This document shows, one piece after another, positions 3,890 to 41,199 of a stretch of 64,000 nt of DNA. Both the position numbers and the translations under genes were made by a program. The notes under the pieces were generated by a model that was not told the origin of the DNA, searched no databases, and worked only from the letters and a program-made list of their open reading frames with translations. The stretch comes from an uncultured Pelagimonas sp. Its GTDB lineage: Bacteria; Pseudomonadota; Alphaproteobacteria; Rhodobacterales; Rhodobacteraceae. The stretch lies in assembly GCF_947498515.1 (NCBI RefSeq), contig NZ_CANMKO010000003.1, positions 62,001 through 126,000 on the forward strand. Reading direction: 5' to 3'. Numbering within the stretch: the first letter of the stretch is position 1; every line of letters begins with the position of its first letter.

Positions 3890-3966
3890 TGGTCGGGCTA
3901 GCAGGACTCGAACCTGCGACCTTCCGTCCCCCAGACGGACGCGCTACCAGGCTGCGCCATAGCCCG
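3890..3966 (-). tRNA. tRNA-Pro (anticodon GGG)
   Basis: The minus strand folds as a complete cloverleaf. The 7-bp acceptor stem is CGGGCTA/TAGCCCG (3960-3966 with 3894-3900). The anticodon stem TCCGT/ACGGA encloses the loop CTGGGGG, giving anticodon GGG. The T-arm is GCAGGTTCGAGTCCTGC. The 3' ACCA is encoded at 3890-3893. The surrounding stretch from 3660 to 4041 holds nothing else that I recognise. Confidence 0.95.
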
Positions 3967-4041
3967 ACTTGTCGGAGTGTCATACTGGATTTCTAAGCGG
4001 GGGCAACCCCTTGTTTGAGAAAAACCTGTGGATGACCAATG

Positions 4042-5196: not shown

Positions 5197-5206
5197 AAGT
5201 CAGGCC

Positions 5207-5515
5207 TCAGTTCTTGTTACCAGCTGCCACGCGGTCTTTCATCAAATGAGAGGGACGGAACGTCAAAACACGGCGTGGCTGGATCGGCACTTCTTCCCCG
5301 GTCTTTGGGTTGCGACCAACGCGGGCCGCTTTGTCGCGCACCGAAAAGGTTCCGAAGGATGAGATTTTCACCTGTTCACCTTCGACAAGCGAATCCGACA
5401 TGTGTTGAAGCACAGCTTCGACAAGGTCGGCGCTTTCATTGCGTGACAGACCAACTTCGCGAAAGACAGCTTCGCTAAGATCCATACGTGTCAGGGTCGT
5501 TTCGCCCATGTTCAT
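5207..5515 (-). CDS. ihfA: Integration host factor subunit alpha
   Basis: A 102-residue HU/IHF-fold protein. It has the N-terminal helices ([22 protein letters not shown]), the [30 protein letters not shown] core and the beta-arm/proline region ([18 protein letters not shown]). The heterodimer with IhfB bends DNA at specific sites in recombination, replication and transcription. ATG 5509 is an alternative start two codons in. It follows fabH in the same direction with a 92-bp gap. Confidence 0.92.
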
Positions 5516-5607
5516 CCCTCCCGGTTTTCACAGGAGATTAGGCGAGGCATAAAAGCCAAGTCAATATCAATAGGTTGAAAGCAGTGCTTTATCAGGCACG
5601 TAAAGCG

Positions 5608-6579
5608 TCACCAGCGTAAAACAACGGCCCCCCAGGCCAATCCGCCGCCAATCGCTTCGGTCACGATGAGGTCACCGGGCTTGATCTGACCGCGTTCCTT
5701 GCCAACCGAGAGCGCCAAGGGAATCGATGCCGCCGAGGTATTGCCGTGGTCTTGAACCGTTACAACAACCTTGTCCCGGCTAAGGCCAAGCTTTTTGGCG
5801 GTGCCGTTGATGATGCGAATATTGGCCTGATGGGGGACAATCCAATCGATCTCATCCGCCGTCATGCCGATCTTGTCCATTGCGGCATTGGCCGTCGAAG
5901 CCAGCTTTTCCACCGCGTGGCGGAAGACTTCTTTGCCCTGCATGCGCAAATGACCGGTGCTATGGGTGCTGACACCGCCGTCGACATACAGAATGTCTTT
6001 GTAACGCCCGTCAGAGTTCAGGTCGGTCGACAGGATGCCGCGATCGGCATTGGACCCTTGGCCGTCTTGTGCCTCAAGCACCAGCGCACCGGCCCCATCG
6101 CCAAATAGCACGCAGGTGCCGCGATCGGTCCAATCCATCAAGCGTGAAAAGGTTTCCGCGCCAATGACCAAGACCCGTTTGGCCTGACCCGAGACGATCA
6201 AGGCGTTGGCATTGGCCAAAGCATAGGCAAACCCGGCGCAAACGGCTTGGACGTCAAAAGCAAAGCCGCGTGTCATACCAAGGCTGGTCTGAATCATCGT
6301 TGCCGCCGACGGAAAGGTTAAATCAGCGGTGGATGTGGCAAGAATGATGGCGTCGATGTCATTGGCCGCCAACCCGGCGTCGTCCAACGCCGCCTGTGCG
6401 GCGCGGGTGCCAAGATCGGATGTGGTTTGACCTTCGGCGGCGAAATGGCGACGTTCAATGCCGGATCGGCTTTTGATCCATTCGTCCGTTGTGTCGAGGG
6501 TTTTCTCAAACTCCGCATTTTCTACAATGCGGTCCGGCAGGTAATGCCCAACCCCGATCACGGTGGCGCGAATTGTCAT
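5608..6579 (-). CDS. fabH: Beta-ketoacyl-ACP synthase III
   Basis: This 323-residue thiolase-fold enzyme condenses acetyl-CoA with malonyl-ACP to start fatty acid synthesis. The catalytic triad is visible: Cys in QAVCAGFAYA, His in VPHQANIRI and Asn in DHGNTSAASIP. The length is normal for the family. The start overlaps the plsX stop by 4 bp (ATGA), which fits the conserved rpmF-plsX-fabH operon of phospholipid and fatty acid synthesis. Confidence 0.95.
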   Translation of the reverse strand: MTIRATVIGVGHYLPDRIVENAEFEKTLDTTDEWIKSRSGIERRHFAAEGQTTSDLGTRAAQAALDDAGLAANDIDAIILATSTADLTFPSAATMIQTSLGMTRGFAFDVQAVCAGFAYALANANALIVSGQAKRVLVIGAETFSRLMDWTDRGTCVLFGDGAGALVLEAQDGQGSNADRGILSTDLNSDGRYKDILYVDGGVSTHSTGHLRMQGKEVFRHAVEKLASTANAAMDKIGMTADEIDWIVPHQANIRIINGTAKKLGLSRDKVVVTVQDHGNTSAASIPLALSVGKERGQIKPGDLIVTEAIGGGLAWGAVVLRW

Positions 6580-7703
6580 GTCTTGCTCTTGTCCTCTGCG
6601 TCGCGGTCGTCTGCCGCTGCGTCATTTTGAGCGAGCTCGGCAGCAGACGCAACCCGTGCCGCCAACCTGTCACCAAATCCGGCTTGTGCCAGCTCAAAGG
6701 CCAGTTTTACAGCCGCGGAAATCCCTGTCGCATCGGCAGAGCCATGGGATTTCACAACAGTGCCATTCAGGCCCAAAAACACCCCACCATTCACCCGGCG
6801 CGGATCGATCTTTTTCTGGAACCGCTTCAAAGCGGGCAGGGCGATCAGCCCGGCAAGACGGGATAAGGGGGAAAGCGAAAATGAATTCTTGAGGTTGTCC
6901 CCAATGAGCTTGGCGGTGCCTTCGCCGGTTTTCAGCGCAATATTGCCGGTGAACCCATCGGTGACGATCACATCACAGCGATCGCCGGGAATATCCCCGC
7001 CTTCGACATAGCCGACAAATTCGAACTGAGCGCGATCGGCATTTGCTGCGATCAGGTCAAAGGCTTCTTTGAGCTCGGGAAACCCTTTGTTTTCTTCGGT
7101 GCCGACATTCAAAAGCCCAACACGTGGGCGTTCGAGATCAAGCCCGTTGCGCGCATAGGACGTGCCCATAAGGGCGTATTGTAAAAGATCTTGTGCATCG
7201 GCGCGGATATCAGCCCCGACGTCCAACATCACGTTGAACCCAGATGGGTTGCGCGATGGCCAGAGAATCGCAATGGCCGGACGATTGATGCCGGGCAACT
7301 TGCGCAGTCGGATCATCGACAGCGCCATCAACGCACCGGTGTTGCCGCAACTTACAGCGACGGTGGCCTCTTTCTGTTTGACGGCCTCAAGGGCGGACCA
7401 CATCGAGGTGCCTTTGCCATTGCGCATAACTTGGCTTGGCTTGTCGGTCATTTTCACGACGCCTTCGGCATCACGAATGACACAGCGACCATCAAGATCA
7501 CGCTTTTTCTTGACCAGTTTTTGGAGCTCTTGCTCAGGCCCATGCAGGATGAAATCCAGCGTTGGGTTCTTTTGCGCAGATTGCGCAATGCCGGCGACAA
7601 CTGCCGCCGGCCCACGGTCACCGCCCATGGCGTCAACCGAAATAACGATCCGGTCCGAGCCAGCCCCGTTTTGCAAAACGCTATGATCCTTCAGAGAGGT
7701 CAT
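6576..7703 (-). CDS. plsX: Phosphate acyltransferase PlsX
   Basis: A 375-residue protein that makes acyl-phosphate from acyl-ACP for phospholipid synthesis. The family signature ISVDAMGGDRGP lies at residues about 22-33, followed by MRNGKGTSMWSALEAVKQKEA and NVGTEENKGF. The frame is open to 7769, but the ATG at 7701-7703 leaves a normal N terminus and avoids overlap with rpmF. It sits between rpmF and fabH, the usual order. Confidence 0.93.
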   Translation of the reverse strand: MTSLKDHSVLQNGAGSDRIVISVDAMGGDRGPAAVVAGIAQSAQKNPTLDFILHGPEQELQKLVKKKRDLDGRCVIRDAEGVVKMTDKPSQVMRNGKGTSMWSALEAVKQKEATVAVSCGNTGALMALSMIRLRKLPGINRPAIAILWPSRNPSGFNVMLDVGADIRADAQDLLQYALMGTSYARNGLDLERPRVGLLNVGTEENKGFPELKEAFDLIAANADRAQFEFVGYVEGGDIPGDRCDVIVTDGFTGNIALKTGEGTAKLIGDNLKNSFSLSPLSRLAGLIALPALKRFQKKIDPRRVNGGVFLGLNGTVVKSHGSADATGISAAVKLAFELAQAGFGDRLAARVASAAELAQNDAAADDRDAEDKSKT

Positions 7704-7725
7704 ACAGGGTGGCCTGACAGGTTGT

Positions 7726-7932
7726 TTATGCTGCGTCTTCGTCCAGTTCGACTTCGTCGGCCTGGGCAATCACTTCGCGCTCAGCGTAGTGGCCGCAAGA
7801 TGGGCAAACGTGGTGTGGGCGCTTAAGCTCACCACAGTTGTCGCATTCGTTAGGGTTTGCAGCAACCAGCGCATCATGCGCACGGCGGTTGTTGCGACGC
7901 GATTTGGATACTTTGTTCTGCTGGACAGCCAT
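7726..7932 (-). CDS. rpmF: 50S ribosomal protein L32
   Basis: A 68-residue protein beginning [20 protein letters not shown], the strongly conserved L32 N terminus. Two Cys pairs (CDNC and CPSC) form the zinc ribbon of the zinc-binding L32 type. The C terminus is acidic. It is transcribed with plsX and fabH. The 156-bp gap to the upstream yceD gene could hold a promoter. Confidence 0.95.
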
Positions 7933-8088
7933 GTCTCAACCTTCTTTACCGTAAGAGGGGAGGCTGTGGCCTGCCCTGATTATCCCGATGTGTTCGGCCT
8001 CATAGCGCTAAGCGTAGGGCAGACACAAGCGTTGTGTTCTCATGAAGGCGCGAAAATACGCAGAACGCCTAAAAGAGCAAGCTGATTC

Positions 8089-8655
8089 TCAGCTTTCGCC
8101 GTCATCTTTCTGTAATTTATCCCGCAGGGAGGCCAAACCAGCAAAGGGGCGCATGTCTTCGTCGCGTATTGGGGCGACTCCTCGGCCAGAAAATTGCGCG
8201 TCTGTGACCTCGGCACCCTCTTTGCGAGGGTAGGCTGGCATCGCCAGCGACAAGGCCTCGGTCAGAATCGCGTCGAAATCGATGGTTTCACCCAGTTCCT
8301 CTATGTCGTCTTCGTCGGTCATCTCGGTTTCGGTACCGGCGTCAGGTATCTCCATTTTATCTAGCGGAACAAAACGGCGCGTCACCTCTGTGTCGATTCG
8401 CGTTGTCACAGGCTCCAGCGTCACAATGCAGGATTGGACAACCGTGGCCCCAAGGTCGGCCTTAAGTTGCCAAGCATTGCGACCATGTGGCGTAATTTCG
8501 CCAACAAAGCGGACTTTACGTAGGGACACGGCATTCAATTCCTCGGCCAAAGCGCTGCGGGCGTCGGCATTTGGCTCCAACAAAAACGGGGTGGCTCCGG
8601 TTTGACGAAGGTCAGAAACGGGGATTTGTGGGGCTGTCGGGTGCTTTGGCGGCAT
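8089..8655 (-). CDS. yceD: YceD-family protein (DUF177), 23S rRNA accumulation
   Basis: A 188-residue acidic protein of the YceD/DUF177 family, regularly found upstream of rpmF. The family features seen are the central ATVVQSCIVTLEPVTTRIDTEVTRRFVP segment with its single conserved Cys, and the ETIDFDAILTEALSLAMPAYPRKEGA motif. Family knowledge links it to 23S rRNA processing or accumulation. ATG 8655 was chosen over the open frame to 8844 because the upstream 63 residues would overlap the divergent lipoprotein gene and look non-coding. Confidence 0.85.
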   Translation of the reverse strand: MPPKHPTAPQIPVSDLRQTGATPFLLEPNADARSALAEELNAVSLRKVRFVGEITPHGRNAWQLKADLGATVVQSCIVTLEPVTTRIDTEVTRRFVPLDKMEIPDAGTETEMTDEDDIEELGETIDFDAILTEALSLAMPAYPRKEGAEVTDAQFSGRGVAPIRDEDMRPFAGLASLRDKLQKDDGES

Positions 8656-9303: not shown

Positions 9304-10044
9304 ATGATCAATTTGATCAAAGGGCGGTATTCAGCGCGCCAAGCAACAACGGATACGGACATCGATCGTGTTCAGCGGTTGCGCGGGCTGGCCTTTGACC
9401 GGTCTGGTGGTATCGATTCAGATCGCTTTGATGCGCTATGTGACCACGTTTTGATCGAAGATCGCACAACCAACGCTTTGGTCTGTTGCTTTCGGTTTTT
9501 GCAGTTTCCGGATGGCCGAGAAATTGGTCAGAGCTATTCTTCTCAGTTTTATGAGCTGGCCCAGTTGCATGAGTTTGAGGGCCGTATTGTTGAGATGGGG
9601 CGGTTTTGTGTCCATCCCGATTTTTCCGGCGACCCAGATATATTGCGCGTCGCTTGGGGGGCCATGACCGTCTATGTCGATGCCAACAAGGTTGAGCTTT
9701 TGTTCGGCTGTGTGTCTTTTGCCGGAACAAACCCTGTGGTGTATCAAGACGCGTTTGCTGCACTGCAAGAACGGCATTTGGCCCCTAGGAAATGGGCTCC
9801 TATGGTCAAGGCCACAAATGTTATCCCCTTTGAAAAAGACGTAACAATCAAGCGAGATGCCAAGCAAGCCAATCTCCAAATGCCTCCGATGTTGCGGACC
9901 TATTTGTTGATGGGGGGATGGGTGAGCGATCATGCTGTGGTGGACCACGAGATGAACACGCTTCATGTGTTTACCGGGGTGGAAATAGCGACAATCCCGG
10001 ACGCCCGAAAAAGGCTCTTGCGGGCGGTTGCCGGGTCGCGCTGA
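9304..10044 (+). CDS. OlsB-like N-acyltransferase (GNAT fold)
   Basis: A 246-residue member of the OlsB-type GNAT acyltransferases, which transfer an acyl chain from ACP to an amino acid such as ornithine or glutamine in aminolipid synthesis. The typical parts are YSARQATTDTDIDRVQRLRGLAF, a Cys/Arg-rich strand (ALVCCFRF), RIVEMGRFCVHPDF and LLFGCVSFAGTNP. Whether the acceptor is ornithine or glutamine cannot be told here. The start ATG 9304 lies behind AGAGG. Confidence 0.7.
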   Translation: MINLIKGRYSARQATTDTDIDRVQRLRGLAFDRSGGIDSDRFDALCDHVLIEDRTTNALVCCFRFLQFPDGREIGQSYSSQFYELAQLHEFEGRIVEMGRFCVHPDFSGDPDILRVAWGAMTVYVDANKVELLFGCVSFAGTNPVVYQDAFAALQERHLAPRKWAPMVKATNVIPFEKDVTIKRDAKQANLQMPPMLRTYLLMGGWVSDHAVVDHEMNTLHVFTGVEIATIPDARKRLLRAVAGSR

Positions 10045-27167: not shown

Positions 27168-28591
27168 GCGGCGCGCGTTCCACACAGAAAGACATCCCCA
27201 TTGTTGTCCCTATCGGCGGGATGGATACGACCACTTGGGACCACTCATTGAGCGCTGGCACGGCCTCACTGATTGACAACATGATGATCGACAAGCGCCG
27301 CCTTTATACGCGCCCCGGATACGAGCGATTGACCACATCTGAGGGGTCGATTGCCGCAACGCTCATGCCGTTTGAGTTCAACAATCAGAGCGTCTTGCTT
27401 TCGAATAGCAACGGCAAGGTGCGCAACGCCTTGACCGGGGATTTGCTGTTTTCGCACCCCGGCGGCGGTGCCAAGATGTCCTACTCGCATATTTCAAACC
27501 ATCTGGTTTTCTGTTGCACGGTGGGCAGCTGGTACTTTGACGGCACCAATGTCACCCCGTCCAATTGGGTTGGTGGACCCGCAGAGTTTGGCGGCGTGGT
27601 GGCTCACAATGAGCGCCTTTACTATTGGGAAAATGACAGTCTTGATTTCTACTATGCCGCCACGGGCGCAATCGCTGGTGATCTGACGCTATTCCCCTTG
27701 TCTCGCCTTGGGAACATGCGCGGCTCCATCGCAGAAATGGCGAGTTGGACTGTGGATGCTTCGCACGGTGCGAATGACGTGCTGGTGATCATCACGACCG
27801 CCGGTGACGTTGCCGTTTACGAAGGGATCGACCCCGGCGATAGCTTAGACTGGCGCTTGACGGGCCGGTACAAAATCGCCCGACCGATCACGTCCAAGAA
27901 ATCCACCTGCAAGCTGGGTGCGGACCTGCTGGTCCAGACGCAAGCCGGTGTCCTGAGCATGACGAGCGTTTTTCGCGGATCTGAATTGGCGATGCAGGAG
28001 ACATTTTCAAGCAAGGTCGATGCCGAATATCTGGTGGATCACTACGAGAATTGGGGCATTTGGCAGACCTATTTGGACCCAAAGGGCAAGTTCCTGTTGC
28101 TGAACAGCGAAGACCTGCAAGGCAATATCCTGCAGTTCGTCAAGTGCTTGGGCAGCGGCGCATGGGTCCGGTGGTCTACCATCCCGGCGGTGGATTGGTG
28201 CGCCTTGGGTGACGACACGTTTTTCATCAGCAAGGGCGGTCACATCTACCGCTATGGCGTCGGCAATACGGACGCGGGAATTGACATCGTTGGCCACATC
28301 GACATGGGCGGATCGGATACCAAAACGGCCTATTCTGTGTCGCTGGCTGGCGGGACATTCTCTGCAGATGGCGACTTTGATTTGGAGATTTCCGCGCGTG
28401 GTGATCAGCAACTCGAAGGGCTTTCTTTGCTCACGTCCCACGACGACGGGAACGACTATCGGCAAGTGGTGATGCCCGTGACTTCGCGCGGTGACACGAT
28501 GCAGCTGACCTACCGGATTTATGGGCGCGGAACCCGCGTTGACTTCCGAACAGCCGAGGCGCGCGGGCGTGTTTCGAGGCGCAGAGTATGA
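27164..28591 (+). CDS. Packaged-DNA stabilisation/tail hub protein (P22 gp10-like)
   Basis: A 475-residue beta-rich protein. It opens with PIVVPIGGMDTTTWDHSLSAGTA and RRLYTRPGYERL, typical of gp10-like hubs that close the tail after packaging. The repeated aromatic strands (SWYFDGTNVTPSNW, AHNERLYYWENDSLDFYYA, GHIYRYGVGN) suggest a propeller. It overlaps the adjacent genes by 4 bp on both sides. Confidence 0.65.
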   Translation: MSGARSTQKDIPIVVPIGGMDTTTWDHSLSAGTASLIDNMMIDKRRLYTRPGYERLTTSEGSIAATLMPFEFNNQSVLLSNSNGKVRNALTGDLLFSHPGGGAKMSYSHISNHLVFCCTVGSWYFDGTNVTPSNWVGGPAEFGGVVAHNERLYYWENDSLDFYYAATGAIAGDLTLFPLSRLGNMRGSIAEMASWTVDASHGANDVLVIITTAGDVAVYEGIDPGDSLDWRLTGRYKIARPITSKKSTCKLGADLLVQTQAGVLSMTSVFRGSELAMQETFSSKVDAEYLVDHYENWGIWQTYLDPKGKFLLLNSEDLQGNILQFVKCLGSGAWVRWSTIPAVDWCALGDDTFFISKGGHIYRYGVGNTDAGIDIVGHIDMGGSDTKTAYSVSLAGGTFSADGDFDLEISARGDQQLEGLSLLTSHDDGNDYRQVVMPVTSRGDTMQLTYRIYGRGTRVDFRTAEARGRVSRRRV

Positions 28592-29007
28592 TTGTCGGAC
28601 GGTTGCTTTACGGGGCAGATGATCATGTTGCGCAGTTCGTTGGCGGCCAAATTGGCGGTGACGTTATCTATAGTTCACATAGGGCTATTGGTGTGCTATC
28701 CAACAATCGAAGCAAACTAATCGCGGGCGTCGTCTACTACGCTTTTGACGGCTCAAACATCTTGGTCGATATAGCGGCCACATCCCCGCATTGGTGCCGC
28801 AAAGACATTCTTAAATCGCTATTCGATTACCCCTTTGAGCAATTGGGGTGCCGAAGGCTCACAAGCAAAATTAGCGCCGAAAACACCCGGTCCCTCAAGC
28901 TATGCGAGGGATTGGGTTTTTGTCGTGAAGGATTGCTGCGTGAGGGCGGGACCGATGGTCAAGACGCTCATGTTCTTGGCCTACTGAAATCTGAACGGAG
29001 ATTTTGA
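28588..29007 (+). CDS. GNAT-family acetyltransferase
   Basis: A 139-residue protein with the RimJ/RimL-type GNAT order: strands LIAGVVYYAFDGSNILVDIAA, a CoA-binding helix (WCRKDILKSLFDYPFEQLGCRRL) and the NTRSLKLCEGLGFCREGLLREGG motif. It sits within the virion operon between the hub and ejection genes, with ATGA overlap upstream. The substrate is unknown; a virion protein or a host protein met early in infection are both possible. Confidence 0.8.
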   Translation: MIVGRLLYGADDHVAQFVGGQIGGDVIYSSHRAIGVLSNNRSKLIAGVVYYAFDGSNILVDIAATSPHWCRKDILKSLFDYPFEQLGCRRLTSKISAENTRSLKLCEGLGFCREGLLREGGTDGQDAHVLGLLKSERRF

Positions 29008-30702: not shown

Positions 30703-33700
30703 ATGTCTGACATTGAAAAATTCAAGAAAATCCGTGGCCTTCTCCCTGAGCTGGACCACCTGTCCGATGGTGAGTTTGCCGAAAAGGTTCGGACAACCGC
30801 CTTGCCAGATATGGATAAGGTTGATTTTTACCACAAGGTCGGCCTGCAGGACCGGAACCCGTCTGGGTTTGAGGACCGTCCCGCCCTTGGAGCTTTGGCC
30901 GGTGGCCTTGGCGGATCTACACAACCAAAACCGGCTCCATTGAGCCCAACCGAACAGCCTGTAGCCCTCCCGAACGTCGCAACGCAGGCTCCGGCCATGC
31001 CTCGCGCTCCGGGCGTTACCCCAGCTGTCAGCCCCCCGGCTGGAATGGACGCACTGCCTTCGATTGGCGGGCCAGATGTTTCTGCGCCTCGCTCTCCAAT
31101 GCAGGAGCCTATGGCCCCGATTGGCGGCCCCGCGATCAGTCCAGCCGGGGGCAAGCCAGCCCTTTCCGATGCAATCATTCAAGCGTCAAAGCCGGAAGGG
31201 CCGCGCCAGAAACCGGACATGAGTTTTGGCATGGGCGGGTTTAACCCGGATCAAGCCGCGCTGGCACGTCGTCAGGCCATTGAGCTTGGCGGTGCCGAAA
31301 TCGCCGGCCGAAATGATCCAGTCGCGCCGGAACCCGTTGACCCGAACAACCCCGAGGGAACCGCAGTCGGTCGAGCCGTTGAGCGTGGTGTAATCCGCGT
31401 AAAGCAATCGGTTCCCGCATATAAGGCGTCCCGCGCAGCATCAGCGATCCGTGAAGCCCGAGAAGGCTATGCGTCGCAGGGTGGTTATCAGGCCCGCGCC
31501 GATAGCTACGAAGAGGAAGCCGCTGCACTTGAGGCGGAGCTTAGCGTCGTTGCCGAGGCCGACCCCGAAGCCGCCGAACAGCTTCAAGAAGAGATTGATT
31601 TCCTGCGTTCCAAGGCGAAGATGGAGCGCATTGGGGCCGACACACCAACGATCAAGGGCAACCAAAAGCGCCTCGACGCCGTGGCCACCAAGAAGGCCGT
31701 CACTGGCAGTGAAGCCTTGGTGCGCCTGCAGGAGTTGAGCAAAGAGGCCCAAGCCCTGCCGATGTCTGCCGGTGCCGAGAACGTGAAAAAGCGCCTCGCT
31801 GCAGCCGAAGACACATGGTCCGATACCTTCAACGTCCTGATGGAAAGCCCGCTTGAAACCGGCGCATTCTTGGCCGAGGTCGGGCTTGAAAGTTCGCCAC
31901 AACTGGCCGCGTCTGCAGCCGCCGGTATCATTACCAAAAACCCCGGTGTTGCCTCTGCAATCTTGGGTGGCGGTGCCATGACTTCCGAATACGGGTCGTC
32001 TATTGCCGAGTACCTGCAGGAGAAGCGCATCAAGATCAATTCGGTTGAAGATGCGGCCGCAGTCCTGAAAGACCCCGATCTTATGCGTGATGCCGAGGCC
32101 CGAGGCCTCAAGCGCGGCGTTGTGATTGCCGCCGCAGAAGCGCTTGGCATGAAGGCAACAGCGGTCGCGCAAGGGGCCATGTCGCCCGTCAAAGGCGCAA
32201 TCGCCGGGGCTGGTATCCAAGCCACCGCTGGTGGTGGTGGTGAAGCCGCAGCCCGCGCCGCAGCGGGTCAGGAGTTTAGCGCTCAAGAGGTGATCATTGA
32301 GGCATTGGCCGAGGTGTTTACGGCCCCTGCAGAGATTGCGACCGCTGCGTACAGCAAAAAGAAGCCCGACGCCCAGCAAACCCCGCCCATGCCCCCACAG
32401 GCTGGCGTTCCGCCGCTTGACGAGGCCGCGCCCAATGTGAAGACACCGACACCAGACCTGCCAAACAAGGTCCGCCCGGAGCCATTGCAGCCCGAGACAC
32501 CGCCAAGCTCCGGCACCGCAGATGCGATCCGCAAGGCAACTGAGCCAGCACCCGCGCCGGAACCGACACCAGAGCCTACGCCCGTTTCGAAAAAGCCCGC
32601 GGCAGACACCGAAGAAAGCAACCCCGAGGCGTTTGAGGAAGAGGCCGAAGAAAAGCTGAATTACGTTTCAGGCTCAGACGGCAATCTCTACAAGGTTGAT
32701 CGGGACGAAACCGGCAAGGCCGTGTTCAGCGCTGTTGGACCTGACGATGGCGGCGCTGCCACTGCGTCATCTGTGCCGGATGATGCGGAAAGCCGCATTG
32801 CTGAAATTGAGGCAAACGCCCCGAAGAAAGACCTTCAAAAAAAGCCATTCACTTACCTGTTCAAGCGGATGAATTTTGGTGTCAAAGGCGAGAATGCGAA
32901 GGGCATTCACCCTGACGGGCCCATCGGCCAAATCCTCAAGGCTGGCGGCATGACATCGCGCAACAGCCCCGGCGTTTTCAGCCGCAAGGGTTCGCCGTCA
33001 GCTGACAATATCCCTGTCAGTGAAATTCGTGAGCATTACCCGGAAGCGCCCGACGACGGGAACGGGTATGTAGAACCGCAATGGCTTGCAGACAAGTTGC
33101 TGGCAGAGCATGGCGGAACCCCTCAGTTTAGCGCTGATCAATACGACCTTGTGCAGCACCATAAGGCCTATGACGATGCGCTGGCAGAAGTTCGCACAGG
33201 AAGAGTTACACCCGAGGCCGATACCTATGTGGAGCCAACCGGCATTCCGCACCCGGAAAAGGACATGCGCCAGCCCATTGAGCGTCTGAACGATATTCGA
33301 ACAGCGGTCATTTCTGAGGCCCATGAAGACGGGATTGATCTTGACCCCGCATCACTGGCCCGTGTTACTGACAAACTTGATCGGGATGGTGGCGAAGTCA
33401 TTGATGCGATTTGGTCTGATCTATCGAACCCTGATTTCGCGCCGGAACAAAAAGGAGCCTTAGTTGATGAAAACCCAATCCCCTTCCCAGAGCCGGGGAA
33501 TGACCAAGCGCCAGCGGGCAGAGCGGACCCTGCAAGCAGCCAAGGACGGCTGGATCAAGGCGCAACAAGTGATGCGCGACCCGAAGGCGACACGCGAACA
33601 GAAGATCGAGGCCAAGAAGCACTCGGACCGGTGCAACAAAACGCGCCAGTCAGTGATGGCAAACCTGCAAGCGAACAAACCGACGCAGGCGAACAAACCC

Positions 33701-36700
33701 TAATACCTGGCGTTGAGCCTGTCACCGACAAGGCCAAGGCCGAAGTGCAGATGTCCAAGCCGAAGCGCGGCGGTAACGCGCCCGTTGACGATGGCCTGTT
33801 TGACACTGGCGCGCGCGATCAAACGGATATGTTTTCCGACGCGGGCGCATCCCCCAAGCCGAAAGCTGGAAAGAAGCGAACCGCAGCCGATAATTTCCGA
33901 GAAAACTACGCCCGAAAAATGAAGGGTGGCGGCAACGATTTGCGCGGCAATCCAAACCTGTCCGGTGTCGCTGATTACGCTGATTGGCTTGGAAACCTGC
34001 CGGATGCAGATTGGGCGGCGATTGAGGGGCATTTTGGAAATGAACACAACCCATTCCTGAACGCCGCGTCCATTGATGAAGTGGGGGCGCAAAATTTCCT
34101 GCAGGGGAAGATAGACGACGCAGGGAAAAAGACGGTTAAGAAAAAACCCGTTTCAGATCAGGCGGGTAACGCCCAAAATCAAGAGCCGGTCAAGAAACCG
34201 GATGATGAAATCGACCTTGACGACATCGGGTTCTCAGCCGACGAACTGGCAGAGCTTGACGCCATTGGCGCGGCCTTCAAAAAGAAGTTGGACGGTACGC
34301 AGCTTAACGCAGGCCTTGACCCTGAGTTGATTGGATTGGCCTACAAAGCCGCCTCGATTTACATCAAGCGTGGGGTCCGAGATTTCTCCAAATTCGCCAA
34401 GGCTTTTGTCAAGCAAACCGGCCTGCAGATGGACACGGTTGCGCGCTACCTTCGCGATGCTTACAATTCCGTGCGCGACGACATGGAAGACGATGGCGCG
34501 GATGTGTCCGACATGGACGATAGCCGCGCGGTTCGTACCAAAACTAAGGAGCTTCAAGATGAATTTCGGGACAGCGGAAACGATCTGGAACAAGGTCAAG
34601 AACCCACGGACGGAGTGGGGCAAGCAGATGTTCCCAATGACGGACGAAGCACTGAACGAAGCGCTGGACCAAGTGAGGGACCGGATCAAGGCCGATCCGG
34701 TGGTGATCGAACTGTATCTGATGCTGGCACCGCTCCTGCACGAGCGCCCCGCACTGCAGGAGACAGTGGACGAACACCCGGAACTGATGCAGGCGTTACC
34801 CGAAGTCCTGAATACGAAGGAAGCCCTCAATCTGGCGTCGAAGGAACACCCGATGCTGAGCCGGGAGCGATTGTTGACGCTCACGAAGCTGCTACACCGC
34901 GACCTCGGGGCGAGCCTGACGCCAACGCTCAACAACTAGCCAACCAGACCGATACAAAGCCAAAGTTTGGCGACCCTGACAGCATTGATGCGATGCTGCC
35001 TGCGCTGCACCCTGAACAGCGCGACGACGTTCTAAAGATCGAAGAACGGTTCTTTGCCCCGAAGGATGGCCGCAAGGCTGGCTATGGGTACATGAACACC
35101 AACGGCACCGGCACCGGGAAAACCTATGTTGCCGCTGGATTGGCCAAGCGTTTCTATGCGGCTGGCAAACAGAACATCTTGATCATGACGAAGCGCCCGA
35201 CGTTCAAGACCTTCAAAGAGGCGCTTGACGCTTTGGGGGTTCCATACAACGAGCCGAAGGACACCGACACCTCGTATGAGGGCGTCAATCTGGTCACGAT
35301 CAACGGCGCGCTTGGCAAGAACAAAGCCCTTGCAGATATTGAGTGGGATTTGATCATCCCCGACGAGACAAACTATATCTCCGAGAACATGAAGGGCGAT
35401 ATTCTGGCCCGTGGCGATGACTTCCGGGGGCTGGCATTGCACCCGGATCACCTCGTCAACCGCGCCAACATGCACTTGCACGAACAGATCACAGAGCTTG
35501 AGAAGGTGCGCCTTGAAATCTTGGTCGCCGTCGAAGCCGGGAAAAACAATGAAGCCGATCAGCTTGAGAACCGGGCCCGGAGCTTAGAAGAGAGGATCAG
35601 CAAAGAGCGTCAGCGCTTGGTATCGGAATACAAGAAGAAACCTCGCCCACACGTCGCCATGTTCTCTGCCACGCCGTTCACGACGCCCAAGAGCCTTGAG
35701 TACGGAGAGGGCTTCCTGTTCGACTTCGAAAAGATCGACGCCACATCGTACAACCAGCCAAACGGGCGCGAGAAATTCATGATCCAGAATTTCGGATACC
35801 GGATGCGCTACAACAAGCTGACCGAGCCTGAAAACATGGTCGATATGGCGATGATGGCCCGCCGGTTTAACGAGCGCCTGCGCCGTGAGGGCGTCATGGA
35901 TGGTCGTGTCTTGGAAGTGGATCACGATTACCAGCGCATGTGGCTGGACGTTGATGGCGGTGTTGGAACCCAGATCGACGCGGCATTCAAACTGATGCAC
36001 GAAGACAAGCATTTCCGCCCGCTCTATACGGCGTTCAACAAGTCTTTCTCGCATCACAAGCGCATTCAGTTGCTTGAGGCAATCAAGGCGCAGGGTGCGA
36101 TTGAAAACATCCGGGCAGACCTTGCTCTTGGTCGTAAGGTCGTGGTGTTCCATGACCGGCAATATGGCGGCGGGTTCAATCCGTTTGATACGCTTGAGGC
36201 CGCAGATAAGAACCAAAGCGCAGAAGGTCTTGAGGCTCTTTGGAGTGAGTTTCAGGCTGCAAACCCGTGGGTCAGCGAGTTGGATTTCACCGGCATGAAA
36301 CCCGCCCGCGATGCTCTGATTGAGGCATTCCCAAACGCGGCGATTGTCGGGTCAGGCGTAAGCGCGGGCAAGTCGCTGCGAAACCAGACCACGTTCAACA
36401 TGGATGATAGCGGCGTCGATGTGGTTATCACTCAGTCCGAAAGCGGCAAAGACGGCTGGTCCGGTCACGACACCACCGGCAAGCACCAACGCGCCATTCA
36501 TAACCTTGGCATTCCGAACCGCCCGACAACTTTGATCCAGACTGAGGGCCGCATCTATCGCGTGGGTCAGGCCTCGGATGCGATCTTCCGGTATTACAAC
36601 ACCGGGACGCAGATGGAGAAGCGCCTGTTTGCCGATGTCATTTCTGGCCGCGCCGACATGGCGGAAAGCCTCGCAATGGGCGATCAAGCCCGTGGCTTGC

Positions 36701-39700
36701 GCAAATCCATCATCAGCGGGTTTCAATCCAGCGCCACGCACAAGCCAAAGAAGGGCGAAGGCAAAGGCGGCAAAGAGGCCGATCATGACGCGCAGGTTAT
36801 GGACCCGTTTCAGGAAGCCAAGGCGCTGTTCTTTGCCCAACAGAAGGGGCGGCAGAACCACCGTGGAGCCGACTATTTCGCCACGCCTGAGCCATTGGGC
36901 CTGCGCATGGTCGAATGGTTGGATTTGAACGCAGGCGAGCGCGCCTTGGAGCCGTCAGCGGGTCATGGTGCCATTGCTCGGTTCTTCCCCGACACCGTGC
37001 ATCAAACCGCGATTGAGCCGTCCTACAACCTGCAGGCCGATCTGTCATTGAACGCGCCGAACATCGACCGACGCATTGATGAAAACTTCGAGACATTGCC
37101 CGTCGTGAACAAGTTTCACGGTATTGCCATGAACCCGCCGTTTGGCCGTGGCGGCAAGCTGGCAATGGAGCATTTGAAGAAAGCCGCCGGCCACTTGTAC
37201 GACGGCGGTCGAATTGTTGCGATCATCCCGCGCGGACCATCGGCAGACAAATACCTCGCAATGGCAACGCAGAGCATGGAAGGTATGGGCGTTTATATGA
37301 CCGCCTCGATCGACCTACCCGCAGTGACGTTCAAACGCGCAGGAACCAGCGTTCAAACCAAGGTCGTCGTGTTCGACAAGCAAATGACCGAAGACGGCAA
37401 GCGCTATGTCGAAAACCTCTTGTCATACGAGACCATCGGCGGCGACACACTAGAGCAATTCGTTGACAATCTGGAAGGCATGTTGCCCGCGACCGGACCA
37501 CGCCACCTACCGCCCGTTGACGAAGCCGCAGAGCTTGAAATTCCAACAGCCGAAAAGGTCGATGTGGTTTCGGTGGTGGATGATAAGCCTATCGTCCGTC
37601 CTAAGCGCTTCACCAAAGACAAAGAGGAACACCTGCGCCGTGTCGAATTGGCGGCAGAGCTTGGTGGCTCCTATGTCACGCGCAAGAAAGACAAAGAGGG
37701 CTGGGGCTTTGTGTTCCCTGATCGGGAGAAGGCCAATGCCTTTGCAAGCGATCTGAACGGCAAGGCCCGCAAGGCCGGTACAGTCAGCGACGGTTTCAAG
37801 GCCGAGAAGCCACGCACCATGTACGAGCTGCGCAACCGTCTTGATGCCTTGGGTCTTGAGGATGTGGATCTAACCGAAATGGACGGAAGCCCACGCGATG
37901 ATCTGGGCCGGTTCCGGTCGCGAGAGGGCAACATGGAAATCCTGTTGCGCGCCACCTTTGGCGGAACGGATACCCTCAACCACGAGGCAATTCACGCGCT
38001 CCGGGCCATGAACCTTTTCACCAAAGAAGAATGGGCCGCACTTGAAGCCAAAGCGCCAGGGTGGATTGAGCGCTACGGCATTGATGAACGCTATGCCGGT
38101 GAAAGCAAAGAGGTTCAGACGGAAGAGGCCATTGCCGAAGCCTTTGCCGAATGGGCGCGCACCAAGGGGAGTGGAGCCGGTAAGATTGCCCGTAGCTTCG
38201 AAAAGGTGCGTCGTTTCTTCTCCGCCATGCTGGACGCGCTTCGACGCTCCGGCTCAGTGGAAGCCGCCGATGTCTTCAATGGCGTTGACAGCGGCGTTGT
38301 GGGGCGCAGAGCGCGCACAGGACATGCCCGCGCCGTTGATCTGGCCCGTAAGACCACGGGTGCCTATGCCGACGCTGACCCCGGCCTATTCCGCGCAATC
38401 AAGGATAGCGCTTCTGAGCGCGGTTCGTGGTGGCAAACAACCCGCGTTCTCTTTCAGGATGCGTTTGCGCCTTGGAAGAATGTTGACCGGGCGCTTGGCT
38501 TGAAAGGCGAGCGATCCACCTACGACCGCATGTCTCTGGTGGAAAGTAAGGCTGGCGTTGCCCTCGACAAGATGGAGCGCGACTATCAGGAGCCGATTGC
38601 AAAGCTCATGGGCCAGCACGAGTTGAGCCAAACCGCTGTTGGAGCTTACCTGATCGACCGCCACGCCGACGAGCGCGACGAGCGCATTGCGCGGACACTC
38701 GGGCGTACCGAAGGCTCTGGCCTGACGCAAACCGACCGCGCAGCAATCCGTTCTGAGTTGGCAAAGAACAACGCCGACCAGATGCGGGCACTGAAAGAAA
38801 TCGGTGAGCTGGTGGACAAGTGGCATGAGGATATGATCGAGGTTCGCGTAAGGGCTGGCCTGTTGTCCAAGCAAGAGGCCGCGTCTTGGCGCGAGTATGA
38901 CCATTACGTCCCGCTGAAAGGCTTTGAAGAGGTCGAGGGAATGACCGTCACCGAGCAGCTGCAAGGCGAGCGATCACGGGCAGGGAAGGGCAACAGCGTT
39001 TCCGGCCGGGAGACACGCGCCGCGAAAGGCCGTGCCGAAGTGGGTGCAGCCAAATTCGATGAAGTGGTTTCAAACATCGTTGCCGGGGCAGGGGAGGCAC
39101 TTGTGCGCGCCCACAAAAACGAAGTGGGTCAAACCTTCCTGAATACCGTTCGCCAGAACAAAAGCCCGCTTTGGTCAGAGGTGAAACGCAAGTCTCGCCC
39201 CATGCTCAATGTGGAAACCGGCGTCGTTCAGTGGATGCGCGAGTACGATTTCAAAGACCGCAATGACCCGGCGGTGATCAGCATGAAAGAGGGCGGGAAA
39301 GAGGTACTTATTCGCCTGCATGATGCTGGCTTGGCCCGCGCCTATAGCAAGATCGGCTTCGCTCAGATTTCGTGGTTCGCACGGTCGATTGCTCGACCCA
39401 TTACTCAATTCCGATCCGCATCACTGACCCGGTGGAGCCCGAAGTTTCTGGCAACAAACACAGTTCGAGACATCACAACCGGCTTGATTATCTCACAGAA
39501 ATTCAACGCCAAGAATGATGCCCGATACCGCGGAGTTCGGTCCAAGATCGCCAAGTATTATGCGCCTGCGCTCTATTTCTCGGGGCGCAATGCGATTATG
39601 CCGGATGCCGACAAGCACCAATGGGATAAGTGGGTGCGTGAGTTTAAGCGCGAAGGTGGCGCAACAGCGTTCGCCAAATACACCGACGTTCGCACCACAA

Positions 39701-41199
39701 AGTCAGACTTGGCCAAACGCGCAAAGCACCATAGCCGCAGCAAAGCCAGCAAAGCCGCGATCTTCACGGCAAAATCTTACTTTGAGGCTATGCGCGTGGC
39801 CAACGAGGCGACGGAGAACGCCATGCGTCTTGCCACATACCGTGCGCTACGTGAGAGCGGGATTGATGCTGTTGAGGCCGCAAACGCCGCGAAGGACATC
39901 ACCGTCAACTTCAACCGCCGTGGCGAGTGGACATCCGAGATTTCCAGCTATGCCATGTTCTTCAACCCGGCGGTTCAGGGTGCCGCGTTCATTGCTCAGA
40001 ACGCCAAGCATCTTGTGAAGCCGATGATTGCCCTGACCGCGCTTGGCGTCGGCATGGAAGTGATCAACCAGATGATGCAGGGAGAGGAAGAGGAATGGGA
40101 TCGGATGCCGCTCTACATGAAGCAGCGGAATTTGATCATCCCCAACATCTTTTCGGAAGACGAGACAGCGCATTTCAAGATGCCCCTGCCTTACAACTTC
40201 TCGACCTTCGTCACCGCTGGCCGTGTGGCCACAGCGCTTGGCATGGGAACGATGGACCCCGCACAGGCGTTCAAAGACTTGTCGTCTGAGACAATGACTT
40301 CTTGGTCGCCAACCGGCGGTGTGTCGTGGGGCACGTTTGTTCCTGACGCCTTCGAGCCTGTTGCCGAGGTCGTGGCAAACGAGAACAATTTCTTTGGGTC
40401 CAAGGTCCACTATGGCCGGATCGACAACGGAGCGCCCCTGTCAGAACAGATGTCACCAAGTCAGAGCTGGTTGTCGCAGGACATCGCACGGTCGCTCAAT
40501 AAGCTATCGGGCGGAAGCCTGACCAAATCAGGAAGCATCGACCTGCACCCCAAGGCCGTTGATCACCTGATCTTTGGTTACACTGGCGGTATGGGGCGCA
40601 TGGTGGCCGGGATTGCCAATGAGGCGTCGGCTTATGGTGCCGGTCATGACGCGGATAGTAGCGCGCATGAGTTTTCATCCATCTTCTACGGTTCGTATGA
40701 CGACCGGGCCGCTATTTCCCGCTCCTACGAAAACTCAAACAACGTCACGACCAAGGCGAAAGATGCCTGGCTCCGGGCGGCAGAGTTTGGCGCGCGGGCT
40801 GCAGAGGCTTATGGCCAGCCTATTGATGATCCAAAGAAGTTTGCTAAGGCGCACATGCCGTCACTGGTGAAAGACCCTGAGTTCAAAGCCTTTATTGAAG
40901 AGAACAAGCGCGACTTGGCTCTGGTGTTTAAGGGAGAGGGCAATTGGGAGAAAATTCTTGTCGCCGCGATGAAGGCTGGCGTTAGGCGTGAGCATGGCGG
41001 GAAAGAGTATTGGGTAAACATTTACAACAGCGAGTTTGAAAAGACCGAAATCCGCAAGTACCTGAAAGTCATGTCAGATATATCCGCTGCGCGCCGCCTC
41101 GCTCGAAAGACCGATGGCAAAGAGTATTGGGATCAGTGGAAGAAATTGGACGCAGCGCAGGCCCACGCCGCCCGCACGTTCAACAAAATGTTCTACTAA
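30703..41199 (+). CDS. Giant polyvalent protein: helicase, N6-adenine methylase, zincin
   Basis: A 3498-residue protein. In order: an N-terminal helical part; an Ala/Gly-rich hydrophobic segment (about 380-546); disordered Pro/Glu linkers; further associated domains; an SF2 helicase with Walker A GTGTGKT at 1468-1474, DETN at 1554, SATPF at 1655-1659 and QTEGRIYRVGQ from 1946; an N6-adenine methyltransferase with EPSAGHG at 2083-2089 and NPPF at 2144-2147; a zincin with HEAIH at 2427-2431; and about 900 C-terminal residues like the LPD domains of polyvalent proteins, with one hydrophobic segment near 3105-3126. Known relatives (DarB type) are ejected with phage DNA and protect it from restriction. 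Two other genes are nested in its linkers. Confidence 0.85.
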   Translation: MSDIEKFKKIRGLLPELDHLSDGEFAEKVRTTALPDMDKVDFYHKVGLQDRNPSGFEDRPALGALAGGLGGSTQPKPAPLSPTEQPVALPNVATQAPAMPRAPGVTPAVSPPAGMDALPSIGGPDVSAPRSPMQEPMAPIGGPAISPAGGKPALSDAIIQASKPEGPRQKPDMSFGMGGFNPDQAALARRQAIELGGAEIAGRNDPVAPEPVDPNNPEGTAVGRAVERGVIRVKQSVPAYKASRAASAIREAREGYASQGGYQARADSYEEEAAALEAELSVVAEADPEAAEQLQEEIDFLRSKAKMERIGADTPTIKGNQKRLDAVATKKAVTGSEALVRLQELSKEAQALPMSAGAENVKKRLAAAEDTWSDTFNVLMESPLETGAFLAEVGLESSPQLAASAAAGIITKNPGVASAILGGGAMTSEYGSSIAEYLQEKRIKINSVEDAAAVLKDPDLMRDAEARGLKRGVVIAAAEALGMKATAVAQGAMSPVKGAIAGAGIQATAGGGGEAAARAAAGQEFSAQEVIIEALAEVFTAPAEIATAAYSKKKPDAQQTPPMPPQAGVPPLDEAAPNVKTPTPDLPNKVRPEPLQPETPPSSGTADAIRKATEPAPAPEPTPEPTPVSKKPAADTEESNPEAFEEEAEEKLNYVSGSDGNLYKVDRDETGKAVFSAVGPDDGGAATASSVPDDAESRIAEIEANAPKKDLQKKPFTYLFKRMNFGVKGENAKGIHPDGPIGQILKAGGMTSRNSPGVFSRKGSPSADNIPVSEIREHYPEAPDDGNGYVEPQWLADKLLAEHGGTPQFSADQYDLVQHHKAYDDALAEVRTGRVTPEADTYVEPTGIPHPEKDMRQPIERLNDIRTAVISEAHEDGIDLDPASLARVTDKLDRDGGEVIDAIWSDLSNPDFAPEQKGALVDENPIPFPEPGNDQAPAGRADPASSQGRLDQGATSDARPEGDTRTEDRGQEALGPVQQNAPVSDGKPASEQTDAGEQTLIPGVEPVTDKAKAEVQMSKPKRGGNAPVDDGLFDTGARDQTDMFSDAGASPKPKAGKKRTAADNFRENYARKMKGGGNDLRGNPNLSGVADYADWLGNLPDADWAAIEGHFGNEHNPFLNAASIDEVGAQNFLQGKIDDAGKKTVKKKPVSDQAGNAQNQEPVKKPDDEIDLDDIGFSADELAELDAIGAAFKKKLDGTQLNAGLDPELIGLAYKAASIYIKRGVRDFSKFAKAFVKQTGLQMDTVARYLRDAYNSVRDDMEDDGADVSDMDDSRAVRTKTKELQDEFRDSGNDLEQGQEPTDGVGQADVPNDGRSTERSAGPSEGPDQGRSGGDRTVSDAGTAPARAPRTAGDSGRTPGTDAGVTRSPEYEGSPQSGVEGTPDAEPGAIVDAHEAATPRPRGEPDANAQQLANQTDTKPKFGDPDSIDAMLPALHPEQRDDVLKIEERFFAPKDGRKAGYGYMNTNGTGTGKTYVAAGLAKRFYAAGKQNILIMTKRPTFKTFKEALDALGVPYNEPKDTDTSYEGVNLVTINGALGKNKALADIEWDLIIPDETNYISENMKGDILARGDDFRGLALHPDHLVNRANMHLHEQITELEKVRLEILVAVEAGKNNEADQLENRARSLEERISKERQRLVSEYKKKPRPHVAMFSATPFTTPKSLEYGEGFLFDFEKIDATSYNQPNGREKFMIQNFGYRMRYNKLTEPENMVDMAMMARRFNERLRREGVMDGRVLEVDHDYQRMWLDVDGGVGTQIDAAFKLMHEDKHFRPLYTAFNKSFSHHKRIQLLEAIKAQGAIENIRADLALGRKVVVFHDRQYGGGFNPFDTLEAADKNQSAEGLEALWSEFQAANPWVSELDFTGMKPARDALIEAFPNAAIVGSGVSAGKSLRNQTTFNMDDSGVDVVITQSESGKDGWSGHDTTGKHQRAIHNLGIPNRPTTLIQTEGRIYRVGQASDAIFRYYNTGTQMEKRLFADVISGRADMAESLAMGDQARGLRKSIISGFQSSATHKPKKGEGKGGKEADHDAQVMDPFQEAKALFFAQQKGRQNHRGADYFATPEPLGLRMVEWLDLNAGERALEPSAGHGAIARFFPDTVHQTAIEPSYNLQADLSLNAPNIDRRIDENFETLPVVNKFHGIAMNPPFGRGGKLAMEHLKKAAGHLYDGGRIVAIIPRGPSADKYLAMATQSMEGMGVYMTASIDLPAVTFKRAGTSVQTKVVVFDKQMTEDGKRYVENLLSYETIGGDTLEQFVDNLEGMLPATGPRHLPPVDEAAELEIPTAEKVDVVSVVDDKPIVRPKRFTKDKEEHLRRVELAAELGGSYVTRKKDKEGWGFVFPDREKANAFASDLNGKARKAGTVSDGFKAEKPRTMYELRNRLDALGLEDVDLTEMDGSPRDDLGRFRSREGNMEILLRATFGGTDTLNHEAIHALRAMNLFTKEEWAALEAKAPGWIERYGIDERYAGESKEVQTEEAIAEAFAEWARTKGSGAGKIARSFEKVRRFFSAMLDALRRSGSVEAADVFNGVDSGVVGRRARTGHARAVDLARKTTGAYADADPGLFRAIKDSASERGSWWQTTRVLFQDAFAPWKNVDRALGLKGERSTYDRMSLVESKAGVALDKMERDYQEPIAKLMGQHELSQTAVGAYLIDRHADERDERIARTLGRTEGSGLTQTDRAAIRSELAKNNADQMRALKEIGELVDKWHEDMIEVRVRAGLLSKQEAASWREYDHYVPLKGFEEVEGMTVTEQLQGERSRAGKGNSVSGRETRAAKGRAEVGAAKFDEVVSNIVAGAGEALVRAHKNEVGQTFLNTVRQNKSPLWSEVKRKSRPMLNVETGVVQWMREYDFKDRNDPAVISMKEGGKEVLIRLHDAGLARAYSKIGFAQISWFARSIARPITQFRSASLTRWSPKFLATNTVRDITTGLIISQKFNAKNDARYRGVRSKIAKYYAPALYFSGRNAIMPDADKHQWDKWVREFKREGGATAFAKYTDVRTTKSDLAKRAKHHSRSKASKAAIFTAKSYFEAMRVANEATENAMRLATYRALRESGIDAVEAANAAKDITVNFNRRGEWTSEISSYAMFFNPAVQGAAFIAQNAKHLVKPMIALTALGVGMEVINQMMQGEEEEWDRMPLYMKQRNLIIPNIFSEDETAHFKMPLPYNFSTFVTAGRVATALGMGTMDPAQAFKDLSSETMTSWSPTGGVSWGTFVPDAFEPVAEVVANENNFFGSKVHYGRIDNGAPLSEQMSPSQSWLSQDIARSLNKLSGGSLTKSGSIDLHPKAVDHLIFGYTGGMGRMVAGIANEASAYGAGHDADSSAHEFSSIFYGSYDDRAAISRSYENSNNVTTKAKDAWLRAAEFGARAAEAYGQPIDDPKKFAKAHMPSLVKDPEFKAFIEENKRDLALVFKGEGNWEKILVAAMKAGVRREHGGKEYWVNIYNSEFEKTEIRKYLKVMSDISAARRLARKTDGKEYWDQWKKLDAAQAHAARTFNKMFY
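33467..33703 (+). CDS. Nested gene A inside the polyvalent gene (+1 frame)
   Basis: A 78-residue basic protein, starting at ATG 33467 with AAAGGAG at 33451-33457 (9-base spacing). The content is helix-prone and Lys/Arg/Gln-rich (MTKRQRAERTLQAAKDGWIK, REQKIEAKKHSDRCNK), with normal phage codon use. In the host frame the same DNA encodes a Pro/Gly/Asp-rich linker. This makes a real overprinted gene more likely than a chance ORF. TTG 33464 is an alternative start. The function is unknown; a nucleic-acid contact would suit the charge. Confidence 0.6.
   Translation: MKTQSPSQSRGMTKRQRAERTLQAAKDGWIKAQQVMRDPKATREQKIEAKKHSDRCNKTRQSVMANLQANKPTQANKP
34559..34939 (+). CDS. Nested gene B inside the polyvalent gene (+1 frame)
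   Basis: A 126-residue helical protein, starting at ATG 34559 with AAGGAG at 34546-34551 (7-base spacing). The sequence looks like a folded protein (FPMTDEALNEALDQVRDRIK; VVIELYLMLAPLLHERPALQ; LTLTKLLHRDL), with CTG-rich, high-GC3 codons. The overlapping host frame is Gly/Asp/Thr/Pro/Arg-rich with no hydrophobic core. The frame is open upstream to 34331, but that part overlaps a well-formed host-frame segment and lacks a ribosome site. The function is unknown. Confidence 0.7.
   Translation: MNFGTAETIWNKVKNPRTEWGKQMFPMTDEALNEALDQVRDRIKADPVVIELYLMLAPLLHERPALQETVDEHPELMQALPEVLNTKEALNLASKEHPMLSRERLLTLTKLLHRDLGASLTPTLNN

Follow-up and report, generated by a model that had tools for sequence, protein, structure and literature searches.

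Genes nested on the same strand and in a shifted frame inside another gene are long known in phages, Rz1 within Rz of phage lambda being one of them. In Rz1/Rz and in the overlaps of phiX174 the host genes are short, and the proteins are unrelated to the one described here.

The ShiLan domain is an out-of-frame HNH endonuclease hidden in a phage methylase gene, in the account of PMC11855218. Two cases from viruses of eukaryotes appear in PMC8227390. The spacer of the hepatitis B virus polymerase lies over the surface gene and is proposed there as an overprinted product, and in apple stem grooving virus a linker lying over the movement protein is ten times as divergent as that protein. We describe gene B, which to judge from its sequence and its relatives is an old gene with a start of its own, lying out of frame inside a DarB-like polyvalent gene, and compare it with these systems.

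The nested frame and its host gene

The window is a stretch of 64,000 nucleotides from an uncultured Pelagimonas sp.; the features discussed are listed in Table 1. Genes for terminase, portal, tail, amidase and a GNAT-like protein precede a giant gene, the host gene of B. The GNAT-like acyltransferase gene (28588-29007) lies shortly 5′ of the giant gene, and the same annotation is found in the phages Parlo, ZX1 (the subject of PMC9505181) and Skulduggery.

Table 1. Coordinates of gene B and of the host-gene features around it, as positions in the window
Feature	Position	Strand	Description
Host gene, DarB-like polyvalent protein	30703..41199	+	3498 codons; PHROG and Pfam matches
Small helical domain of the host frame, just 5′ of B	34303..34557	+	Modelled part, pLDDT mostly >90
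AAGGAG, Shine-Dalgarno-like	34546..34551	+	7-base spacer to the ATG of B
Gene B	34559..34939	+	Nested ORF of 126 codons, +1 relative to the host gene; product predicted to be all-alpha
Host-frame linker over B	34585..34908	+	Predicted disordered, pLDDT <50; near neutral in its amino acids, kept open
Walker A motif NGTGTGKT of the SF2 helicase-like domain after B, host frame	35101..35124	+	Read from the sequence
DNA methyltransferase part, phrog_6263	36868..37254	+	Host residues 2056-2184; PHROG match
LPD38 domain, PF18857	40087..40650	+	Host residues 3129-3316; Pfam match

The host protein matches LPD38 (E 1.1e-31), phrog_10691 (E 0), the DarB-like phrog_10089 (E 1.7e-20) and methyltransferase PHROGs. 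Pfam helicase families match it only below their own cut-offs; the Walker A motif is visible directly. It combines the helicase-like part, the adenine-methylase-like part and the LPD-type domain of a DarB-like protein. Its position after the tail and structural genes, taken with what PMC5512222 relates of P1 DarB, suggests that it would be carried in the virion and injected.

The initial annotation proposed a complete 126-codon +1 frame here, with AAGGAG 7 bases 5′ of its ATG, and both are confirmed from the window sequence. The ORF lies wholly within the host ORF in a different frame; its stop codon occupies 34937-34939 and its product has 126 amino acids. This length hinges on the choice of ATG because the frame is already open from 34331, where a TTG start would give 202 amino acids. 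The GC3 of B, rightly called high in that annotation, is 0.79, against 0.35 when that DNA is read as host linker and 0.65 in the remaining host gene. In 51 distinct sequences the host frame over B is composed of G (16.0%), A (13.2%), R (10.2%), D (10.1%) and S (8.9%), with L at 2.8% and no W.

AlphaFold2, run on B with 34 sequences, predicts a well-folded protein of eight helices (mean pLDDT 85.7, which rounds to 86; pTM 0.79), in keeping with the helix-forming sequence claimed earlier. A model of the host segment 34303-35385 (28 sequences), in which B begins at residue 86, is folded over residues 1-94, has pLDDT below 50 and no secondary structure over residues 95-202, and is folded again in its helicase part. 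Foldseek returned no similar fold for B (best E 1.4 in PDB, 0.99 in BFVD). Searches of Pfam, PHROGs, NCBIfam, PADLOC and PDB sequences gave weak, scattered matches only, none convincing: the best Pfam match has E 0.014, each Pfam family appearing in 1-3 of 34 members, and a single PADLOC match, to type I specificity (E 0.01), appears in one of 13 members. These weak matches differ from member to member. No nuclease family was matched at E<=0.1 in Pfam or E<=0.01 in PHROGs (34 members), nor at E<=0.01 in NCBIfam or E<=0.1 in PADLOC (13 members).

Relatives of B and its start signal

Searched by tblastn with B of the window, phage records yielded four distinct phages (six records) at 29-35% identity, the matches sitting in CDSs named DarB-like, PLxRFG or hypothetical; the B protein of Serratia phage Parlo as query brought in two Vibrio phages more. 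In each of these six phages the match start minus the CDS start is 1 modulo 3, so that B is in the same +1 frame in all. Against viral contigs, B of the window alone found no relatives in 32 matched stretches; when five aligned B proteins served as query, 38 loci were recovered. In all 42 loci compared at that point, B is shifted by +1 against a host frame that is open. Further records came from a helicase search, plasmid records, genome contigs (no relatives in the first scan, four in the second), more viral scans and genome searches. Repeats were removed by hand: L025 (Parlo), L069 (its B equal to that of L061), L063 (equal to that of L041) and contigs fetched again. Identical B genes are common to several of the records.

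B is present in 64 of the 66 remaining records, window included, and in 62 of these 64 it is nested in the +1 frame of a host gene with more than 400 open codons. Adding L091, which comes from a same-family genome and has the host gene most closely related, among those found, to that of the window (one tblastn match spanning B, 40.5% identity to the window's host protein), brings the totals to a B relative in 65 of 67 distinct records and nesting in 63 of 65; the 65 of 67 is not a prevalence, because B itself was the query that brought in most of the records. The relative in L056 is weak only (E 3.4e-5). The carriers are phages and prophages of Alpha-, Beta- and Gammaproteobacteria, including the low-GC3 loci L052-L055.

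Two of the 65 B records, L065 and L067, are not nested in a long open host frame. L065 (Bradyrhizobium lablabi) has stops in the host frame over B, and at 7557-8579 a fragment of the upstream host domain is fused in frame to B; five host proteins found no match at E<=1e-3 in the rest of this locus, which is probably a decayed prophage. In L067 (equal to L062) B, at 9563-9934, stands behind a gene that by eye resembles Sel1 repeats and a trypsin-like part. The host frame is open for 168 codons there, the contig ends about 330 bases further on, the best match of the window's host protein has E 0.65, and no helicase was found nearby. L067 is a possible stand-alone B, at a contig end, and the only one that the suggested search for such homologs produced. 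Matches to B occurred in 1 of 101 and 1 of 385 genomes (in both the window's own) and in 2 of 398, 1 of 18 and 2 of 390, these samples overlapping and the window's own genome being counted in those of 101, 385, 398 and 390.

In none of the eight annotated records examined is a CDS listed for B in addition to that of the host, the gene tables of the plasmids being incomplete; annotation of these eight misses B because the gene is wholly inside another. To what these records list, B adds a conserved protein family. Among the matches listed for open-access PMC papers, judged by title and the start of the abstract, none dealt with a gene nested within DarB-like or polyvalent genes.

The start of B is conserved along with its frame. 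The start codon lies eight codons 5′ of a conserved WN in 40 of 43 sequences and nine in the window; L023 and L036 have WN variants and start at the aligned place. Of 59 starts, 58 are ATG and one is GTG (L006). In 12 of the 59 a stop in the B frame directly precedes the start and therefore excludes an upstream extension. Pairing to the anti-Shine-Dalgarno sequence averages -6.8 kcal/mol before B in 48 distinct loci, against -2.5 kcal/mol at other +1-frame ATGs of the same host genes. A median of 3.4% of these background ATGs are as strong as the site of B, and none of 95 in the window; L024 (too few background sites) and ten repeat loci were left out, and the related sequences are not independent. 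The signal is weak (more than 15% of the background as strong) in eight of the 48, namely L022, L032, L037, L039, L051, L057, L061 and L091, and in L051 and L057 no Shine-Dalgarno-like site was found before B.

These comparisons support the ATG at 34559 as the start. They also favour the earlier suggestion of a complete gene in a tolerant linker: the relatives keep the frame and start of B, and rather than carrying +1 stops or losing AAGGAG-ATG, most keep a sequence like a ribosome site. B might instead be the C-terminal end of a truncated host protein, reached by programmed +1 frameshifting and never free. Its start does lie close behind a folded host domain, the shared frame in L065 would fit such a fusion, and so would the two loci that lack a Shine-Dalgarno-like site. 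We hold this extremely unlikely, as at the 12 starts directly preceded by a stop the shift could occur only within B, and as the relatives conserve the start codon and mostly have a Shine-Dalgarno-like site ahead of it. B is very probably made as a free protein from its internal start. Initiation by ribosomes at the AAGGAG-ATG inside the phage mRNA would yield a free helical protein of 120-130 residues, alongside the full-length host protein from the same mRNA.

Constraint on the two frames

The frames over B were compared by all-against-all blastp of 51 distinct sequences (a set without L056, L065, L067, L070-L073, L077 and L091). At E<=1e-3, 2247 of 2550 ordered pairs match in B, 381 in the host linker and 217 in the third forward frame. 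The antisense frames match in 648, 283 and 686 pairs, two of them outnumbering the host linker, and are stop-free in only 13, 10 and 3 of the 51. B of the window matches 40 of the 50 other distinct B proteins; its linker, and the window in each other frame over B, match none of the 50 at the same threshold.

The initial annotation had proposed a synonymous-site test of both frames. Twelve disjoint pairs, several from one close group, were chosen from the B relatives. Positions 1, 2 and 3 of B differ 256, 203 and 408 times in 1501 codons, and those of the downstream host frame 922, 768 and 1813 times in 5149 codons. The usual pattern of the host is inverted over B because position 3 of B is position 1 of the host and position 2 of B is position 3 of the host. 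As uncorrected proportions, dNN/dNS is 0.42 for B (bootstrap 0.32-0.50) and the corresponding dNN/dSN of the host over B is 1.06 (0.91-1.24). Changes that alter the host alone are, per site of the shared DNA, 2.5 times (2.0-3.3) as frequent as those that alter B alone. The ratios 0.71 and 1.80 from the SS class rest on 3.5 changes, and this class has too few sites to use. By this test the nested frame is under purifying selection stronger than the host frame alone would impose on it. Between the window and L091 the position pattern of B is nearly flat (48, 42 and 51 differences) because the pair is far apart; 52 of 119 residues are alike in B and 44 of 116 in the linker.

Openness was evaluated by re-drawing synonymous codons. 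With B kept and codons drawn by host usage, the host frame stays open in 5.7% of draws on average and in a fraction of 0.000 for the window (2000 draws). It is open in all 39 distinct sequences tested, where 2.2 would be expected if only B were kept (the later-found L065, with its host-frame stops over B, and L067 are not in this set). Both frames therefore look selected, and in this set the host frame also codes through the overlap. In the reverse re-draw B is open, given the linker residues, in 43% of cases on average and in 46% for the window. The earlier remark that a second frame stays open because stops are rare in such DNA accordingly holds for B, whose openness is cheap, and fails for the host frame, open far more often than expected. 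Taken together, these comparisons show a host linker over B that is kept open but, as far as substitutions can tell, unconstrained in its residues. The host protein would tolerate B because only a flexible spacer is needed there.

As a control, 50 other-frame ORFs of the host gene, each of at least 60 amino acids, were searched against 62 loci. The ORF holding B (in its 202-codon form) matches 49 of the 62. Of the 13 other +1 or +2 ORFs, 12 match no locus and one, in the +1 frame, matches a single locus. Five antisense ORFs match 39, 11, 10, 3 and 1 loci, the one with 11 (34234-34935) lying over B. The one with 39 (35584-36216, minus strand, 210 amino acids) lies opposite the conserved helicase, and its similarity is probably mirror similarity.

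That antisense ORF seems to present, elsewhere in the host gene, just the similarity expected of a shadow ORF: a +1 frame open by chance in GC-rich DNA, whose similarity is a by-product of conservation in the host frame. The cheap openness of B would also fit such an origin. Over B, though, the host frame is the unconserved one, as the blastp pairs attest, the substitutions favour the frame of B, and the other forward ORFs match next to nothing. The shadow reading is contradicted by all three lines and we consider it next to impossible. B is almost certainly a genuine conserved protein-coding gene, on the strength of these sequence comparisons. For tailed phages it presents a clear division of labour between frames, one folded and the other a free spacer.

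Module, origin and comparison with known systems

The host segment after B matches 143 phage records, of which eight hold at least 80% of it; these eight (six phages) are the eight phage records that hold B. Among loci fetched with the helicase, B is present in 10 of 12 (one a contig already known, one weak). The two without it, L048 and L059, have other gene layouts by eye, L059 resembling a type III restriction gene. In L048 a separate helicase gene of the same type and 863 codons (3893-6484) stands without B, a possible outgroup for the question of origin.

The Walker A motif follows the B stop by 39-66 codons in 42 of 45 sequences. In L018 it is broken after NGTGTGK, about 60 codons past the B stop, by an insertion that is intein-like by eye. 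L026 and L029 have no Walker A within 80 codons after B; a different stretch takes the place of the helicase motif (after 5755 in L026 and after 10366 in L029), so B can stay while the part that follows changes. The stretch in L029 has a motif reminiscent of ADP-ribosyltransferases.

Distances in B correlate with those in the 400 host codons after it at rho 0.59, a value reached in none of 300 permutations (49 sequences). With the 85 host codons before B rho is 0.26 in the same number of sequences, which may be noise because this upstream part is only 19% identical on average. The eight of eight records, the spacing of the Walker A motif and the rho of 0.59 together indicate that B is inherited with the helicase-methylase module. 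We tentatively infer that B is a partner of this module, somewhat against the odds as we see them. B could be dedicated to the SF2 helicase-methylase module encoded after it, serving in the folding of that module, in holding it inactive or in loading it into the virion, and such a role would explain why B stays locked to the module. B may then be a needed partner of DarB-like anti-restriction proteins.

The same distribution bears on whether B could be a present or former homing-type element that entered the host gene and does no harm when read through, as with the HNH gene of ShiLan. The layout is that of ShiLan in PMC11855218, with an out-of-frame ORF in a host frame that is open and modelled as a loop. 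Such an element is nonetheless very unlikely here. The hidden frame of B has no nuclease domain, in that no nuclease family is among its matches at the thresholds used. ShiLan has a disjunct spread; B accompanies the full module in all the phage records that hold it, is present in most helicase loci and co-varies with the helicase, and a B-free version of the same host joint was found in none of the records compared.

How gene and linker came together is a separate matter. B may have been inserted into a linker, may have arisen in one, or may have come first. In the last case B would have been an ordinary gene between two others, read-through in another frame would have joined these neighbours into the giant protein, and the linker would be the overprinted product; this reading concerns origin only, leaves B functional and does not conflict with B being a gene. 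It would account for conservation and folding being found in the frame of B, and for the lack of constraint on the linker. By codon usage B resembles the rest of the host gene more closely than the linker does in 39 of 50 sequences (median z -1.1 vs -4.2), a lean towards B as the older, but the test reverses in 11 of the 50, ten of which have a host GC3 of 0.52 or less, and base composition confounds it. Host genes whose part upstream of B is shorter (L037, L039, L052-L055), the annotated CDS of L060 that starts 128 codons before B, and the helicase gene without B in L048 all fit; against them, the single possible stand-alone B lies at a contig end. On this evidence the joining of separate neighbours is a serious contender that falls a little short of an even chance, and B being older than the linker is a view we entertain with the same reserve. 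In L052-L055 and L060 (Acinetobacter oleivorans plasmid) GC3 is low and the helicase gene that bears B has only about 1300 codons.

A further step is conceivable, if on balance doubtful. Giant polyvalent proteins may have been built at this joint by out-of-frame reading of a neighbour gene: B would be the older, would still be made and needed as partner of the module, its other frame would have become the disordered linker, and the overlap would lock partner and enzyme together through mosaic recombination. The locus offers a concrete, testable example of a route by which proteins of great size and many domains may acquire linkers, and the disordered linkers of other polyvalent proteins are worth re-reading in their other frames.

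The host gene itself is like the methylase-helicase dyad of P1 DarB and other polyvalent proteins in having helicase-like and methyltransferase-like parts and an LPD domain (PMC5512222). The order of the two parts differs: methylase first in the dyad described there, helicase first in the window. The section of PMC5512222 on the dyad mentions no nested gene, and in the main text the words 'overlap' and 'linker' occur 0 times. No P1 record was found with B in the phage collection at E<=1. The overlapping genes of phiX174, as PMC8227390 presents them, share with B the same strand, a shifted frame and a place inside another gene.

The nearest described system in kind is ShiLan. According to PMC11855218 it too is a complete out-of-frame ORF in a phage DNA methylase gene, with the host frame open and predicted to form a loop, and like B it was missed until other frames were read. 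As a homing insertion of disjunct distribution it occupies the third frame, where it starts at a GTG and encodes HNH and zinc-finger domains. B, unlike ShiLan, is in the +1 frame, occurs in all eight phage records with the full module, is mostly preceded by a Shine-Dalgarno-like site, and is helical with no nuclease match at the thresholds used.

In logic, B stands nearest to the polymerase spacer of hepatitis B virus and the linker of apple stem grooving virus. As with B, the other frame in these cases is a linker that joins two domains (PMC8227390). Those are small viruses of eukaryotes; B belongs to tailed phages (the six annotated ones have records of 53-63 kb), lies in a gene for a giant host protein and begins at a Shine-Dalgarno-like start.
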